DNA from: Deltaproteobacteria bacterium
Lineage (GTDB): Bacteria > Desulfobacterota > Syntrophobacteria > Syntrophobacterales > Syntrophobacteraceae
Direction of reading: 5' to 3'
Length of the DNA stretch: 59,656 nucleotides
Assembly: GCA_021793275.1 (NCBI GenBank)
Contig: JAJYTC010000004.1
Location: 1-59,656, forward strand
Shown: piece after piece, positions 22,107 to 30,034 of the stretch
Layout of the letters: the number at the start of each line of letters is the position of its first letter
Position numbering within the stretch: the first letter of the stretch is position 1
Position numbers and translations under genes: made by a program
Notes under the pieces: model-generated
What the model was told of the DNA's origin: nothing
What the model saw: the letters and a program-made list of their open reading frames with translations, nothing else
The model's database searches: none

Positions 22107-22121
22107 AAGCGGGCGGCTCCA

Positions 22122-22152
22122 TGTTTAAACGCTATTTAAACATTTAAATAGC
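22122..22152. promoter_or_regulatory. overlapping palindromes, likely activator binding sites
   Basis: TGTTTAAA-N5-TTTAAACA (22122-22142) overlaps a second perfect palindrome with arms GCTATTTAAA and TTTAAATAGC around CA (22131-22152). They lie about 90-115 bases upstream of the sigma-54 promoter, the usual place for enhancer sites, and 16 bases upstream of the activator start, so they may also serve autoregulation. Confidence 0.7.
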
Positions 22153-22237
22153 TCAGCAACCCAAAGGAAGCAAGACAAATGTTTTGTTCCTGGACTAAGT
22201 AGGCGTAATCCCGGCATTTACACCATTGCGGCCTCAT

Positions 22238-22253
22238 TGGCATCGATGTTGCT
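22238..22253 (+). promoter_or_regulatory. sigma-54 (-24/-12) promoter
   Basis: TGGCAT-N5-TTGCT has the invariant GG and GC exactly 12 bases apart, matching the TGGCAC-N5-TTGCW consensus at all but one base. Predicted transcription would begin near 22264, about 37 bases before the tusA-like start. Confidence 0.85.
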
Positions 22254-22300
22254 CTAAGGACCAGCGGCTGTAAACTTTACCGGGCAGAGCGCAGGATTCG

Positions 22301-22810
22301 ATGAAACCGGATAAGACGCTCGATCTTTGCGGCGTGTTCCATCCCTACGGCCTGATTTTGTGCAAGGCGACCCTGGCTTCGATGCAGCAGGGCGGCACAC
22401 TCGAGATTTGCATAAGGGACCCGGAGGCGACCAAGGACCTGCTGACCATACTCGACCGTTCGGGAGAAGTTCTTCTGGAAAGTGAAAAGCGCGGCGACCG
22501 TTTCCATCTGCTTGTCCGAAAATGCTCGGTCTCAATTCAACCAAAGGAGAAAAAGATGTCGAACATCGATCTTAATTCAATCAGTCCCGCGAGTTCGGTT
22601 GACGCAAGGGGCAGCGCATGCCCGGGGCCGCTTCTTGAAGCGAAGAAGGGCATCGGCAAGGTCAAGGTCGGACAAGTGCTGGAAGTCCTATCCAATGACA
22701 CCGGCACAAGAAACGATCTTCCGATCTGGGCGGCCAAAGTCGGGCACGAATTCCTGGGCTTTGTCAGCATGGACGGCTATGACAAACTCTTCATCGTGAG
22801 AAAAAAGTGA
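22301..22810 (+). CDS. tandem TusA-family sulfur carrier fusion
   Basis: One frame of 169 residues holds two TusA-like domains. TusA proteins carry sulfur as a persulfide on a Cys in a CPxP motif. The second domain has it (SACPGP, C107); the first (residues 1-80) has HPYG at that place and lacks the catalytic Cys. An internal ATG at 22556 (residue 86), with AAGGAG 6 bases upstream, could start the second domain alone. The gene may thus give a fusion and a free carrier. It is first in the sigma-54 operon and overlaps the next gene by 4 bases. Confidence 0.85.
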   Translation: MKPDKTLDLCGVFHPYGLILCKATLASMQQGGTLEICIRDPEATKDLLTILDRSGEVLLESEKRGDRFHLLVRKCSVSIQPKEKKMSNIDLNSISPASSVDARGSACPGPLLEAKKGIGKVKVGQVLEVLSNDTGTRNDLPIWAAKVGHEFLGFVSMDGYDKLFIVRKK

Positions 22811-23259
22811 ATAAAACCGGGAAAATCCTCATTCTGGCGACCGAGAGTTGCGCTTACCCGGGGGCAAATGCGGTGGGGCAGGCGCATTCGAGCTATCCGG
22901 CCAACACCTATATCCTCAGGGTGAGAGCGCCGGTCCTTTTCCCCGAGCGGTTCTATCTGGAGTGCTTCGAGAAGGGCATATGGGGCGTAATCATCATGTC
23001 GTGCGGCGTGGAATGTCCCTATCACGGGGCCTATGAAGCGCTTGCAAAGAGAATGGACCGCGTTTTCGCCATGATGAAGCAACGTGGACTCGATACCCAA
23101 AGGCTGCGGCTGACGTCGATCTGCACGGTCTGCACACGCTCTTTTTTAAAGGAGGTCCAGCAGATGAACGAGATCATCACGAAGCTCGGGCCTCCGGGAG
23201 CCGAACGGGCTCGGGCGGGCATTCCCGGACAAAACGGTGTCATGGCTTCGGGAGGCTGA
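22807..23259 (+). CDS. MvhD-like hydrogenase iron-sulfur subunit
   Basis: A 150-residue protein of the MvhD/VhuD family, which passes electrons between a hydrogenase or other donor and HdrA. It has ESCAYPGANAVGQ near the N-terminus, SCGVECPYHGAYEA in the middle and SICTVCTRSF near the C-terminus. The Cys positions resemble MvhD but the first pair is reduced to one Cys, so it is a divergent member. The GTG start overlaps the TusA-fusion stop (GTGA). Two HdrA genes follow directly, making a soluble MvhD-HdrA module likely. Confidence 0.82.
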   Translation: MNKTGKILILATESCAYPGANAVGQAHSSYPANTYILRVRAPVLFPERFYLECFEKGIWGVIIMSCGVECPYHGAYEALAKRMDRVFAMMKQRGLDTQRLRLTSICTVCTRSFLKEVQQMNEIITKLGPPGAERARAGIPGQNGVMASGG

Positions 23260-23262
23260 GAG

Positions 23263-24543
23263 ATGGAATCCGGCGTCAAAAAATTCGATGCGCTCGTTCT
23301 CGGCGGGGGCATTGCGGGCCTCGAGGCCGCGCTGAACCTCGCCGAGCTGAATTTCAGCGTAGCGGTCGTGGAAAAGGATGCTTCCATAGGCGGCAAGATG
23401 ATTCGGCTCTCCAAGGTCTTCCCGACTCTTGACTGCGCAAGCTGCATCACAACGCCCAAGATGGCCGCTGCCGCCCATCATAATAATATAACCCTTTTCA
23501 CCTACTGCGATCTCGTTTCCCTTAGCAGGAACGGCAGGGGGCTCAGGGCGCAGATCCGGCAAAAACCGAGGTATGTCGACGCGGACAAATGCATAGGCTG
23601 CAGGCAATGCGAGTATGCGTGCCCCGTGTATGTCTCGGACCCAGAACAGGGAGACTTTGCAGCGCGAAAAGCGGTCTACATTCCCTTTTCCAACGCGATT
23701 CCCCAGATTGCGCTGATCGATACGCAAAACTGCATGCTCTGCGGGAAATGCGAAAAGGTTTGCCCGACGGGGGCGGTGGACTATCTGCAGGCGCCGCAAG
23801 ATTTCACGATAGAATCCAAAACGGCGGTGATAGCAACGGGTTTTGACGTGACTCCCGTCGAGAATAAGCCCCTCTATGGCGCGGGAAAGATCCCGAACGT
23901 GATCACGGCGCTGCAGATGGAGAGGCTGCTCGCACCCCACGGACCTTACAACCGGGTGCTTCGGCCATCGGACGGCAAGCTGCCCGACTCGGTCGCCTAC
24001 ATCCAGTGCGCGGGATCGCGGGACCAGACGACAGGCATCCCCTACTGTTCCCGGGTTTGCTGCATGTACGCAATCAAGCAGGCGATGCTGCTTTCGGGAA
24101 GCCTTCCTCTTGCCGACATCACGATCTATTACATTGACATACGCGCGTTCGGCAAGGGCTACGAGCAGTTCTACCAGAACGCCGCCGCAATGGGGATCCA
24201 GTTCGTCAAGGCAAAACCGGTGATCGTCGGATCGGGGGAGGGAGGGGGCGTGGTTTTGCGCTACGAAGCCCAGGAGGATGGCGGCCGCATTGTCACGGCC
24301 GAACACGACCTGGTGGTGCTCTCTCTTGGTCTGGTTCCAGGCCGGGCGCCCGGGGAGCGGGCCGCCGCGCCGACAGGCCCCGACGGCTTCATCGCCGTAC
24401 CCCGGCCGAGGACCGCTCCGGCCGTTACGGAAGTCGAGGGCGTTTTCGTCGCCGGCACGGCCTGCGGGCCCAAAGACATCGTGGATACGATTGCCGAGGC
24501 CGGGGCGGCTGCGATGGAAGCTTCAAACTACCTCAGGGAATGA
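23263..24543 (+). CDS. hdrA: HdrA-like FAD/iron-sulfur protein, short form
   Basis: A 426-residue HdrA/QmoA-type flavoprotein. HdrA proteins hold FAD and split or relay electrons among ferredoxin, disulfide and hydrogenase partners. The Rossmann motif GGGIAG is at 14-19 and DCASCITTPKM follows (C58, C61). Two complete 4Fe-4S motifs are CIGCRQCEYACP (C110-C120) and CMLCGKCEKVCP (C157-C167), and the HdrA-specific CAGSRD and YCSRVCCMYA cysteines come after. It lacks the N-terminal domain and C-terminal ferredoxin of the long form encoded next door. GGGAGG precedes the ATG. Confidence 0.9.
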   Translation: MESGVKKFDALVLGGGIAGLEAALNLAELNFSVAVVEKDASIGGKMIRLSKVFPTLDCASCITTPKMAAAAHHNNITLFTYCDLVSLSRNGRGLRAQIRQKPRYVDADKCIGCRQCEYACPVYVSDPEQGDFAARKAVYIPFSNAIPQIALIDTQNCMLCGKCEKVCPTGAVDYLQAPQDFTIESKTAVIATGFDVTPVENKPLYGAGKIPNVITALQMERLLAPHGPYNRVLRPSDGKLPDSVAYIQCAGSRDQTTGIPYCSRVCCMYAIKQAMLLSGSLPLADITIYYIDIRAFGKGYEQFYQNAAAMGIQFVKAKPVIVGSGEGGGVVLRYEAQEDGGRIVTAEHDLVVLSLGLVPGRAPGERAAAPTGPDGFIAVPRPRTAPAVTEVEGVFVAGTACGPKDIVDTIAEAGAAAMEASNYLRE

Positions 24544-26504
24544 TCATGGCTGGTGAGAACGAATACGGAAAAGAAGGCGCAGCCGGCAGGCGCAAAGTCG
24601 GCGTCTATGTGTGCCACTGCGGTGGAAACATTTCAGACCACGTCGACGTTGGGGAGGTGTGCCGGAGGATCGAGAAGATTCCCGGCGTGACGTCGGTACA
24701 AAACAACGTGTTCATGTGCTCCGATCCCGGACAGGAACTCATAATGAAAGACATAAGGAGCGGGGCCGCAGACCGTGTCGTGGTGGCGTCCTGCGCCCCC
24801 AATCTTCACGAGGCGACTTTTCGAAACGCGATTTCCCGGGCCGGGGGAAACCCCTATATCTACGAACATGCCAATATCCGCGAACAGGTGAGCTGGGTCC
24901 ATCACGGCGCGGCCGCAACGGAAAAGGCCATCCGCCTTATCGCCGCGGCAGCCGCCAAGGCCGAACGGCTGGAACCCCTGACCCCCATTCGGCTGGAGGC
25001 GCTAAGACACGCAACGGTCGTCGGCGGAGGCATCGCAGGGCTCAAGGCGGCAATAGACCTGGCAAAGCGCGGGGTCGAGGTAGCGATCATCGAAACCTCG
25101 CCTTTTCTTGGCGGGCGCGCGGCCCAACTGGACCGGCTGGCCCCGTCGGGGGAAAGCGCAGCGCAGGTTATCTCGGAGCTTGCCGGGCGGGTCCTTAACC
25201 ATAAGTCCATCACCGTTCATACATGCGCCCGAATCCGCACATATCAGGGGTATATTGGAAATTTCAGGATCGGGATCGGAAGAGAGGCTCCCGGCGGCAG
25301 CGGGGAGTGGAATGAAAGCGGGAAGAAGGACAAGCCGGCTCCGGCCCGCGGCGAGTTCGTTCCCTTTGCGGGAGTATATGCGGGCGAGGTTTTGGAGATA
25401 CCGGAAGAATTTTCGATCGATACCGGGATAATTCTTCTTGCGACGGGTTTCAAACCTTATGAGCCAAGGCGCGGCGAGTACGGCTACAAGGAATTCGAAG
25501 GGGTGGTAACGCTTCCCGAATTCATAAAGATGCTCGCCCTGGCGGGGCGAGGCGGTGACACCCTGGAGATAGGCGGCAGGCAAATAAAGAGCGTGGCGAT
25601 GATCCACTGCGTCGGCAGCCGGATGATCCCCGGGATACACGAAGAGGACGAAAACGGCCGGCTGAACGAGTATTGTTCGAGGACCTGCTGCACGGCGACC
25701 CTCCAGACGGCGACCACCATTCGCAAGACCTGGCCCCGAACGAACGTGTTCGAATTCTACCGCGACATCAGGACTTACGGACGCGGCCAGGAGGAGCTTT
25801 ACGCGGAGGCGGCCCGCGCGAGTGTGATGTTTTTGCGCTTCGACCCGGAAGAGCCTCCGGTGGTCGGGAAAAGCGAGGATAATGACGGCTATGCGCTGTA
25901 TGCGCGGGTGAAGGATAAATTGACCTTCGGCGAGGAGATCCTGGCGCCGGTGGACCTGGTGGTGCTTTCGGCGGGCATGGAGCCAAACGATGTTTCCGAT
26001 ATGGTCGCTATGATGAAGCTGCCTGTCGGGGCCGACAGGTTCCTGCAGGAAGTTCACCCGAAGCTGAGGCCAGTCGAGCTTTCCGTTGCCGGCATTCTTC
26101 TGGCCGGGACCTGTCAGGCGCCGATGGACACGGGGGAAGCGTGCGCGGCGGCTTCGGCCGCCGCCGTCAAGGCGTCGGCCGTCCTTTCCCGCGGCTATGT
26201 CGAACTCGACCCGTTCGTAGCCGAGGTCGATGGGGATAAATGCAGGGGGACCGGCGCATGTGTGCAAGCATGCCTTAAAGAAGGCGCTTTGGAGCTGGTC
26301 GAAACCCTCGATGGGGGTGAAAAGGCCCTCAGGGCGCAGGTCAATGCGGCCTTCTGCATCGGGTGCGGCGCCTGCGCGGCGGTTTGCCCCGAAGGGGCAA
26401 TAAACGTCAAAGGCTGGACGCTTAACCAGTACGAAGCGATGCTCGACGCCATCGTTTCCGACGATTTGTTTGAAGAGGAGCGGCCGCATGCAACAGCAGG
26501 ATGA
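24540..26504 (+). CDS. hdrA: HdrA-like FAD/iron-sulfur protein, long form
   Basis: A 654-residue HdrA with the N-terminal cluster domain (VCHCGGNISD, C25 and C27; FMCSDPGQ; SCAPNLHEATFR), FAD motif GGGIAG at 162-167, then CVGSR and EYCSRTCC. The C-terminal ferredoxin has one complete motif, CIGCGACAAVCP (C606-C616). The preceding motif CRGTGACVQAC has Thr571 where the second Cys is expected, so that site may hold a 3Fe-4S cluster or none. It overlaps the short hdrA by 4 bases and the winged-helix gene by 17. Paired with the short HdrA it probably forms a heteromeric electron-transfer unit. Confidence 0.92.
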   Translation: MIMAGENEYGKEGAAGRRKVGVYVCHCGGNISDHVDVGEVCRRIEKIPGVTSVQNNVFMCSDPGQELIMKDIRSGAADRVVVASCAPNLHEATFRNAISRAGGNPYIYEHANIREQVSWVHHGAAATEKAIRLIAAAAAKAERLEPLTPIRLEALRHATVVGGGIAGLKAAIDLAKRGVEVAIIETSPFLGGRAAQLDRLAPSGESAAQVISELAGRVLNHKSITVHTCARIRTYQGYIGNFRIGIGREAPGGSGEWNESGKKDKPAPARGEFVPFAGVYAGEVLEIPEEFSIDTGIILLATGFKPYEPRRGEYGYKEFEGVVTLPEFIKMLALAGRGGDTLEIGGRQIKSVAMIHCVGSRMIPGIHEEDENGRLNEYCSRTCCTATLQTATTIRKTWPRTNVFEFYRDIRTYGRGQEELYAEAARASVMFLRFDPEEPPVVGKSEDNDGYALYARVKDKLTFGEEILAPVDLVVLSAGMEPNDVSDMVAMMKLPVGADRFLQEVHPKLRPVELSVAGILLAGTCQAPMDTGEACAAASAAAVKASAVLSRGYVELDPFVAEVDGDKCRGTGACVQACLKEGALELVETLDGGEKALRAQVNAAFCIGCGACAAVCPEGAINVKGWTLNQYEAMLDAIVSDDLFEEERPHATAG

Positions 26505-26823
26505 GAAAAAGGCGAGGAAGGAAGCGATCAAAAAGCTTCGCGAGCTGAGAAAAGAAGCGATCGAGCGGGCTACGACCAGGATGAAGGAACAGAAAAGAAT
26601 CACCGATTCGATAAAGGCCGAGCTTCTCGGGGGAGACAAAACGGTCCCCGAGCTTTCCGCTGCCACAGGGATACCTTCGGCTTCCGTCATGTGGACGGTG
26701 GCTACACTCAAAAAATACGGGCAAGTCGTGGAAGGAGACGCTGCGGCAAGTTATTTCAGATACAGGCTCGCAGCGGGTGGAAAGGCCGAGGAGGCCGGGC
26801 GTGAGGCGCCAGGCGAATCTTGA
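26488..26823 (+). CDS. small coiled-coil/winged-helix protein in the hdr operon
   Basis: A 111-residue protein. The N-terminal half is a charged helix (EKKARKEAIKKLRELRKEAI). The second half looks like a winged helix-turn-helix (TVPELSAATGIPSASVMWTV, then ATLKKYGQVVEG). GAGGAG precedes the ATG, which lies inside the end of the long hdrA gene, so translation is coupled. It could be a local regulator or a structural part of the complex; sequence alone does not decide. Confidence 0.75.
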   Translation: MQQQDEKKARKEAIKKLRELRKEAIERATTRMKEQKRITDSIKAELLGGDKTVPELSAATGIPSASVMWTVATLKKYGQVVEGDAAASYFRYRLAAGGKAEEAGREAPGES

Positions 26824-26926
26824 GTTTTGAGCGCCCGGTTTTGAGCGGCTGGTTCCATTGTTTTAAACAAAAATGTTGTGCAAGAAGCTTTAAAACGGCT
26901 GATTGTAAAACACGGAGGAGAGCACT

Positions 26927-27295
26927 ATGCCTGAAAAGGAAAAGATCGTCTACATTGTAACCCATGGTGGAGAGGACCCCGACAGGGCCACCTTTCCCTT
27001 CATGCTTGCCACGGCTGCGCAAACGATGGACGTGGAAACCGTCGTGACGCTCCAGGGTTCGGGCGTCTACCTGGCGCAAAAGGGCTACCTGGATCATGTC
27101 AATGCCGCGGGGCTACCGCCGCTAAAAGGCCTGGTCGACACATTCCTAAACGAGGGCGGGCAGCTTCTTGTCTGTATTCCCTGAATACGGCAGCGTAAGA
27201 TCGCTGAAAGCGATCTCATTGAAGGCGCGAGTCCGACGATGGCGGCCAATTTGAACCAGCACATTCTCTCGGCCAACTCCACTTTGGTTTACTAG
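26927..27295 (+). CDS. selenocysteine-containing DsrE-family protein (UGA readthrough)
   Basis: DsrE-family proteins accept and transfer sulfane sulfur, often with TusA. A plain reading stops at TGA 27182-27184 after 85 residues. The frame then continues for 36 codons with family-like sequence (IRQRKIAESDLIEGA, ending NSTLVY) to a TAG at 27293. The TGA sits where relatives have Cys, giving the redox motif Cys83-Ile-Pro-Sec86. A stem of 8 perfect pairs with a GAA loop starts 13 bases after the UGA. Full length is 122 residues, normal for the family. GGAGGAG precedes the ATG. A conventional gene caller would truncate it. Confidence 0.88.
27198..27216 (+). promoter_or_regulatory. candidate bacterial SECIS element (DsrE)
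   Basis: AGATCGCT-GAA-AGCGATCT forms an 8-pair stem with a 3-base loop that begins with G. Twenty-one bases separate the UGA from the loop, within the range known for bacterial SECIS elements, which recruit SelB to insert Sec. Confidence 0.82.
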
Positions 27296-27313: not shown

Positions 27314-27823
27314 ATGGATATGATGGAAAACGCTGCGCGCGAGCCGGCTGCGCCATTTGACGGCAAGACAATTCTACTTTTTTCCGACGATCTGGACAAA
27401 GCGCTTGCCGCGCTCGTCATCGCCAACGGCGCCGCGGCAATGGACAGTCCGGTCACCATCTTTTTTGCCTTCTGGGGGTTGAACATTTTGCGAAAGCAGG
27501 CGACTCGAAAAGGAAAGGACCTGCTGTCCAGGATGTTCGGATTTATGATGCCCAAAGGCTCGGAAAAACTCAAGCTCTCCAAGCTCCACATGATGGGGAT
27601 GGGCACCACGATGATGAAGCAAGTAATGAGGAAGAAAAATGTAAAGCTCCTCCCCGACCTGATCGCCGCAGCAAAGGATGCCGGGGTGCGATTCCTGGCC
27701 TGTTCGATGTCCATGGACGTCATGGGGATCTGTAAAGAAGAGATGATAGACGGCGTCGAGGTGGGCGGGGTCGCCACCTTCCTCGGCGCTGCGGAAAAAT
27801 CCAACATGACCCTGTTCATCTGA
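27314..27823 (+). CDS. DsrE/DsrF/DrsH-like protein (DsrE2 type)
   Basis: A 169-residue protein of the DsrE2-like group, with an ILLFSDDLDKALAALVIANG start, a hydrophobic PVTIFFAFWGLNIL stretch and a Met-rich middle (LHMMGMGTTMMKQVM). A Cys in FLACSMSMDVMGI is the likely sulfur-binding residue. It may associate with the membrane. It starts 18 bases after the TAG of the Sec DsrE and is probably last in the operon, giving TusA, DsrE and DsrE2 in one transcript. A large inverted repeat follows the gene. Confidence 0.87.
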   Translation: MDMMENAAREPAAPFDGKTILLFSDDLDKALAALVIANGAAAMDSPVTIFFAFWGLNILRKQATRKGKDLLSRMFGFMMPKGSEKLKLSKLHMMGMGTTMMKQVMRKKNVKLLPDLIAAAKDAGVRFLACSMSMDVMGICKEEMIDGVEVGGVATFLGAAEKSNMTLFI

Positions 27824-29264: not shown

Positions 29265-29326
29265 GTCGCTTCAGCACGGTTGGGTTCCTTTTGTTTTTCA
29301 CACCCTCGCTAAGGAGGATAACGAGC

Positions 29327-30034
29327 ATGAGCGAACAAGCAGGCAGTGGTTGTGTGGAACCGGCAAAAGGCCCTATTACAGGCTCTCGGGAGGAATCCGG
29401 TGGCGGCGCCGTCCCGGCAACACCCGCCATAAGCGCGCGGGTGGGGCGGCCGGCGCCGGATTTCGAGGCATCGGCTTTTATGGATGGCGGCTTCAAAAAC
29501 ATCAGGCTCTCGGACTACAGGGGCAAGTGGGTGGTCCTGTGTTTCTATCCCGGGGACTTCACCTTTGTCTGACCCACAGAATTGACGGCAGTTGCCGTTA
29601 AATACCCCGAGCTTCAAAAGAGCGGTGTCGAGGTCCTATCGGTAAGCACCGACAGCCGCTTCTCCCACAAGATCTGGCAGAGCGAGGAACTTTCTAAAAT
29701 GACGCCCGGAGGCGTGCCCTACCCCATGCTCTCCGATGCCGGCGGAGCTATCGGCAAGGTTTACGGGGTCTACGACGAGGCTTCGGGCGTCGATTTTCGC
29801 GGCCGTTTCCTGATCGACCCGGATGGAGTCATCCAGGCGATGGAGATCCTGACGCCGCCGGTTGGGCGACACGTGGGCGAACTCATCCGGCAGATCAAAG
29901 CCTTCCAGCATGTCCGGGAAACCCAGGAGGCCACTCCTTCGGGCTGGAAGCCCGGGAAGCCTACCCTCAAACCCGGTCCGGATTTGGTAGGCATGGTGTG
30001 GCAATGCTGGAAACCCGAGATGGCGGAAGACTAG
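29327..30034 (+). CDS. selenocysteine-containing peroxiredoxin (UGA readthrough)
   Basis: Peroxiredoxins reduce hydroperoxides with a peroxidatic Cys in the motif FTFVCPTEL. Here that codon is TGA (29570-29572), and the frame continues as [14 protein letters not shown] to a TAG at 30032-30034, so residue 82 is predicted Sec. A stem-loop of SECIS type follows. The 235-residue product has an unusual 45-residue Gly/Glu-rich N-terminal extension. The usual resolving Cys near the C-terminus is absent ([10 protein letters not shown] instead of a VCP form), while Cys227 in VWQCWKP could take its place. AAGGAGG precedes the ATG at 9-base spacing. Confidence 0.9.
29582..29601 (+). promoter_or_regulatory. 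candidate bacterial SECIS element (peroxiredoxin)
   Basis: TTGACGGC-AGTT-GCCGTTAA forms an 8-pair stem (one G-U) with G as second loop base. Seventeen bases separate the UGA from the loop, as in known bacterial SECIS elements. Confidence 0.8.

Follow-up and report, generated by a model that had tools for sequence, protein, structure and literature searches.

Sigma-54 activators of sulfur genes have been described in several bacteria. FisR of Cupriavidus pinatubonensis and Acinetobacter baumannii is a sulfide/persulfide-responsive sigma-54 activator of sulfide-oxidation genes (PMC7315123, PMC9918477), and the PAS domain of NreB from Bacillus licheniformis has been reported to sense H2S (PMC9918477). 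In the TspS/TspR system of Acidithiobacillus (PMC12194929) a sigma-54 activator is encoded beside sulfur-oxidation (sox) genes, as the regulator described here is beside sulfur genes. The sigma-54 regulons of Desulfovibrio vulgaris Hildenborough (PMC4641369) follow the same logic in a sulfate reducer, with a sigma-54 promoter and upstream activator sites; no tusA, sulfurtransferase or heterodisulfide operon is named as a target in the text of the survey. The YTD cluster, or dsrEFH type II (yeeE-tusA-dsrEFH; PMC13293266, PMC12998232), contains the TusA and DsrE sulfur-relay genes of Desulfobacterota, and the sHdr-LbpA sulfur-oxidation system (PMC6067878) brings Hdr-like and TusA/DsrE proteins together in one sulfur pathway.

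The window, by which we mean the whole stretch of 59,656 nucleotides that was analysed, encodes an Hdr/TusA operon and, divergent from it, a sigma-54 activator (Table 1). Like FisR, this activator joins a regulatory domain to an AAA+ domain and a Fis DNA-binding domain, and FisR of A. baumannii is likewise encoded divergently to a sulfur operon for which a sigma-54 promoter has been predicted (PMC7315123). The targets differ, being sqr/pdo in aerobes for FisR and TusA/Hdr in strict anaerobes for the window activator. In the Cupriavidus protein, cysteines of the regulatory domain are important for responding to sulfide; A. baumannii FisR does not share these cysteines (PMC7315123), whereas five are nearly invariant in the window family. 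Conserved cysteines in the N-terminal regulatory domain (five, across 56 members) are a likeness in kind to FisR that implies no equivalence of the individual residues. By this comparison the window activator appears FisR-like in its presumed mode of working, not in established FisR membership. Two plasmid matches considered as FisR kin were rejected, as they were not FisR-type loci. TspR is a two-component response regulator with a receiver domain, whereas a Pfam search of the window protein found a PAS domain and no receiver domain of the TspR/NtrC type. The operon also has a different gene set from the YTD cluster, with flpD and two hdrA genes present and no yeeE-like gene between 22301 and 27823, and differs from sHdr-LbpA in having no lbpA, an hdrA pair with flpD and a different type of regulator. 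No published account of the regulator/operon pair, or of sigma-54 control of the operon, was found in the literature available outside subscription, an absence that is weak evidence. The original prediction had called such a switch unusual for an Hdr/TusA system. This needs narrowing, because the circuit type and sigma-54 activators beside sulfur-oxidation genes (FisR, TspR) are already known; the new points are that the target is an Hdr/TusA operon, that the arrangement is conserved across the phylum and that the PAS domain is rich in cysteines.

Table 1. Features of the window around the divergent gap, with coordinates on the whole stretch
Feature	Position	Strand	Basis or remark
Divergent sigma-54 activator gene, 471 aa	20691..22106	-	Pfam/NCBIfam, translation
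Activator domains	PAS aa 9-123; AAA+ aa 148-315; Fis-type HTH aa 414-450		AAA+ with Walker motifs and GAFTGA
Palindrome 1, ATGTTTAAACGCTATTTAAACAT = ATGTTTAAA-CGCTA-TTTAAACAT	22121..22143		9-bp arms, 5-bp spacer
Palindrome 2, GCTATTTAAACATTTAAATAGC = GCTATTTAAA-CA-TTTAAATAGC	22131..22152		10-bp arms, 2-bp spacer
Sigma-54 (-24/-12) promoter, TGGCATCGATGTTGCT	22238..22253	+	Sequence; conserved in 63/79 related loci vs ~3% by chance
Predicted transcription start	22264	+	12 bases past the -12 GC, from sigma-54 promoter geometry
Two TusA domains, one open frame	22301..22810	+	Pfam TusA, 2 stretches; first with CGVFHP replacing CPxP, second with canonical CPGP
FlpD/MvhD-like iron-sulfur protein	22807..23259	+	Pfam FlpD, E 4e-21
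HdrA-like flavoprotein, short form	23263..24543	+	NCBIfam HdrA2, E 2e-131
HdrA-like flavoprotein, C-terminal ferredoxin-type domain	24540..26504	+	NCBIfam HdrA2, E 3e-146
Small HTH-like protein	26470..26823	+	No Pfam/NCBIfam match; kept in nearly all related operons
DsrE-family protein	26927..27295	+	In-frame TGA at 27182-27184 (VCIP-TGA-IRQRK)
DsrE2-like protein	27314..27823	+	Pfam DrsE_2, E 1e-57

From the sequence comparisons set out below, 22107-22300 is very probably the control region of a dedicated, enhancer-driven sigma-54 switch. The gap between the divergent genes is 194 bp and houses the promoter and both palindromes. The promoter reads TGGCAT-CGATG-TTGCT, which matches TGGCAC-N5-TTGC at 9/10 positions with the GG and GC correctly spaced, as expected of the near-perfect -24/-12 element that had been predicted. 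The ATG of tusA follows 48 bp past it. Only one other + strand site of 9/10 quality was present in the 59.7 kb (two in total). Scanning the genome for TGGCAY-N5-TTGC revealed 49 sites against 9 for the reversed control pattern. The sequence features looked for in a sigma-54-dependent bacterial enhancer-binding protein (EBP) and its target were found at this locus: a -24/-12 element at the target and an rpoN gene in the genome, upstream dyads about 80-150 bp from the start that are conserved with the gene, and an AAA+ domain with a GAFTGA loop combined with a Fis-type HTH.

The translated activator carried the intact GAFTGA motif that had been predicted, and its Pfam matches were Sigma54_activat (E 5e-70), PAS and HTH_8. 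The activators linked to the operon formed, with their nearest paralogues, a single clade (support 100/99). In this family Cys53, Cys58, Cys73 and Cys86 of the PAS domain were present in 56/56 members and Cys61 in 54/56, giving the spacing C-x4-C-x2-C-x11-C-x12-C. The AF2 model of the PAS domain was of good overall confidence (pLDDT 85.5), lowest around residues 61-80. A fold search of the PDB with this model returned an ordinary PAS fold, the nearest being flavin (LOV, NifL) and haem (DosP) PAS domains, and there was no thiol sensor among these PDB neighbours. Reactive sulfur or redox state probably acts on the switch by way of the PAS cysteines. A serious contender, if not quite an even one, is that the cysteines hold an Fe-S cluster or other redox cofactor which senses oxygen, NO or cell redox instead of sulfane sulfur, so that the operon would be redox-switched. 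The cysteine spacing offers enough ligands for a cluster, the nearest solved folds are cofactor-binding PAS domains, and the PAS domain of a second activator clade, present at some of these loci, is likewise rich in cysteines. Against this, the operon is made of sulfur-relay proteins (TusA, DsrE), and the known cysteine sensors beside sulfur operons, namely FisR, SqrR, CstR and NreB of B. licheniformis, read persulfide or sulfide (PMC7315123, PMC9918477), which is not decisive. We consider a cluster-bound redox sensor about as likely as sulfur sensing by the PAS domain. The wider reading of a hitherto undescribed, phylum-wide activator family in sulfate reducers, in which a five-cysteine PAS domain senses sulfane sulfur (or redox), the protein acts as a dedicated TusA/Hdr on-switch and the DNA recognition code has diversified readably, with helix classes matching half-site classes, is held tentatively, at a little less than an even chance.

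The upstream region contained the two overlapping palindromes that had been predicted, both of them perfect. The pair lies 86-117 bp upstream of the -24 element, at approximately -112 to -143 from the predicted start. Shuffling showed that palindromes with arms of at least 9 arise about twice per window by chance; when the 194-bp gap itself was shuffled 5000 times, one such palindrome occurred in 0.5% of cases and two in none. Palindrome 2 resembles the conserved doublet of the relatives, TTAACA-N2-TKAACA, and has the same 8-bp period. A point against the reading as a switch is that the window site, with its TTTAAA core, has diverged from the TGTTAA module that is commoner among the relatives. 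Alignment of the window with its closest relative, the sister MAG L031, placed the palindromic element (the putative UAS) and the -24/-12 element among the best-kept blocks of the gap. A palindrome resembling a UAS half-site, TGTTTTAAACA, was also present between 26859 and 26869, in the gap before dsrE, with no sigma-54 site after it.

Taken element by element this evidence is moderate, and it is comparative conservation that settles whether the switch is real. When 84,980 species genomes were searched with aligned sequences of the second TusA domain, 80 named loci emerged, nearly all with the same operon. Besides the window, 79 loci of Desulfobacterota had this tusA gene and at least 100 bp of upstream sequence; the conserved sites counted for them in Table 1 were those scoring at least 9/10, with GG and GC in place, no more than 910 bases upstream of tusA; the chance expectation in the same loci corresponds to a background of 0.033 hits per kb-strand. 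These sites differ among the relatives in both sequence (TGGCAT/C-N5-TTGC-A/T/C) and position, so their conservation is more than mere sequence identity. In the 41 loci with a divergent activator, the half-sites TGTTAA, TTAACA, GTTTAAA and TTTAAAC occurred 122 times upstream of the sigma-54 site against 15 +/- 4 in dinucleotide shuffles, an 8x enrichment. The palindromes therefore passed the test, set in the original prediction, of being conserved next to orthologues. About 20 loci share the module CTGTTAA..TTAACA..GTTAA..TTAACA-N2-TKAACA; as its alignment was anchored on the doublet TTAACA-N2-TKAACA, the doublet is conserved by construction and the flanking half-sites are not. Promoter, upstream palindromes and divergent activator thus recur together before orthologous tusA-flpD-hdrA operons across Desulfobacterota, which supports the reading of the region as an enhancer-driven switch. 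Cultured relatives that have the switch include Desulfosarcina widdelii (L061) and Desulfacinum (L056).

An unlikely alternative accepts the promoter and activator as real and takes the palindromes to be mainly an operator for the activator's own gene, or the site of another regulator, and not the tusA enhancer. The palindrome site is only 15-46 bp from the activator start codon, and 19/20 relatives have, at a fixed 8-9 bp past the doublet, a GCAA-like element whose opposite strand, TTGC, recalls a -35 box. In Desulfacinum (L056) and at L092, however, TGTTAA half-sites stand upstream of the sigma-54 site of tusA even though no activator is encoded divergently there. The idea that the activator has a sigma-70 promoter across the UAS was rejected, as its pattern was not found in the window and the reverse-strand matches in relatives were not above shuffles. 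The operator and enhancer roles could also hold together. The last possibility, that an AT-rich gap fortuitously holds a sigma-54-like site and palindromes, draws on the frequency of equally good palindromes in shuffled windows and is refuted by the promoters and half-sites conserved together in dozens of loci (63/79 promoters; 122 vs 15 +/- 4 half-sites).

The GCAA-like element took the form GCAA, CCAA or ACAAG (e.g. L108 and L055; L035-L108 range), and its spacing differs in the genus of the window. Possible readings are a -35 box from which the activator gene is transcribed, or a further portion of the binding site.

Analysis of the 29 loci with long flanks revealed the family activator to be divergent in 18 (no more than 1.7 kb away), on the same strand at the operon end in 2 and elsewhere nearby in 3; in the other 6 it was absent from the flanks examined. 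Four loci (L048, L051, L062 and L063) keep the sigma-54 site and have no family activator in the flanks examined, which suggests that other activators can take over or that the gene lies elsewhere. A second clade of sigma-54 activators, with a different cysteine-rich PAS domain and HTH (WNKAEVGRR), was found no more than 10 kb from the same operons at L052, L054, L059, L078, L080 and L103.

Comparison of the recognition helices with the half-sites paired the window group with GTTTAAA and the NRVTVWNR helix of the Desulfobacula group with GTAACG. Further helix classes were SRT[ST][VI]W.Q, paired with TGTTCA, SRGTVWNR, paired with TGTCTA, and SRVTVWNR. In a two-class test the helix class and the dominant half-site agreed at 40/44 loci, with classes that follow clades and were defined after looking. 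The number of phylogenetically independent helix/half-site pairs is only 2-4, which gave the independent comparison little power, and the covariation was not significant. The helix/half-site match, which is confounded by ancestry, is suggestive of the window activator reading the window element.

Within the 4.65-Mb genome the exact UAS palindrome occurred once, and no second exact or one-mismatch copy was found. Allowing two mismatches gave 21 matches per strand (the window site included), compared with 9 when the pattern was reversed; the window site was stronger than every other match. From the genome's 49 sigma-54 sites, 30 besides that of the window were inspected, and GTTTAAA or TTTAAAC stood upstream of none of them. 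A larger regulon in the same genome was rejected on these two grounds. A paralogous activator (54% identity) is encoded on contig C190 of the same genome (L183, 7684-13802), divergent from a second sigma-54-controlled operon. This operon encodes TusA-like, MetF-like and HdrA-like proteins, named by eye from the translations, and the locus has its own -24/-12 site and TTAACA/TGTTAA half-sites. The activator family thus seems to be linked with Hdr operons at more than one locus.

The enhancer-driven sigma-54 circuit is of a textbook type. Sequence and comparison show directly which parts are present and how well they are conserved, that the genome has an rpoN gene, that the activators fall in one clade and that the palindrome is unique in the genome. 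RNA polymerase with RpoN would sit at the -24/-12 element in a closed complex that is unable to melt alone. The activator would bind the half-site cluster (22121-22152) through its Fis HTH as an oligomer and loop the DNA to the promoter, where the GAFTGA-bearing AAA+ ring would hydrolyse ATP and open it. Transcription would then begin near the predicted start and run through tusA-tusA-flpD-hdrA-hdrA-hth-dsrE-dsrE2. The PAS domain would gate the switch, its five cysteines probably reading persulfide/sulfide or redox, directly or via an Fe-S cluster, such that the sulfur-relay/Hdr electron-transfer machinery would be made only with its substrate present. From sigma-54 geometry and general knowledge, together with the cysteines and the genes of the operon, we infer that the activator binds and loops the DNA, where transcription starts and, most of all, what the signal is.

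Operons of the Hdr/TusA/DsrE kind occur widely among sulfate reducers, and their role and timing of use are unsettled. A conserved, dedicated and signal-gated switch would provide a direct handle on them, as the signal of the activator, once found, would reveal the sulfur compound or redox condition to which the operon responds. Point mutations for testing can be chosen from the alignments of promoter, half-sites and cysteines, and the helix/half-site match may make it possible to recognise the switch in metagenomes and to predict its specificity there.

The genome also encodes a DsrA/DsrB-type sulfite reductase, so the organism looks like a sulfate reducer. The small HTH-like protein shows 32-57% identity outside the genus and is possibly a second regulator. 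Between its gene and dsrE, L033, L056 and L061 encode HdrC-like and HdrB-like (CCG) proteins, and most others have a gap of the same size. The window (26823-26927) and the sister MAG lack both genes. The relatives have a stop between two separate tusA genes, whereas the window runs both domains in one frame. An AAAGGAG-like ribosome site and an ATG still precede the second TusA domain, and the joined frame may be a recent fusion or may still contain an internal start. Where the window dsrE has TGA, relatives including the sister MAG carry Cys (VCIPC), and the TGA probably encodes selenocysteine. The genome has selB-like sequence in fragments on separate contigs, all of them below the family cut-off. 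A peroxiredoxin-like frame (29291-30034) has a single TGA at the catalytic position (PGDFTFV-TGA-PTEL) and is, as judged from its sequence, a probable selenocysteine peroxiredoxin.
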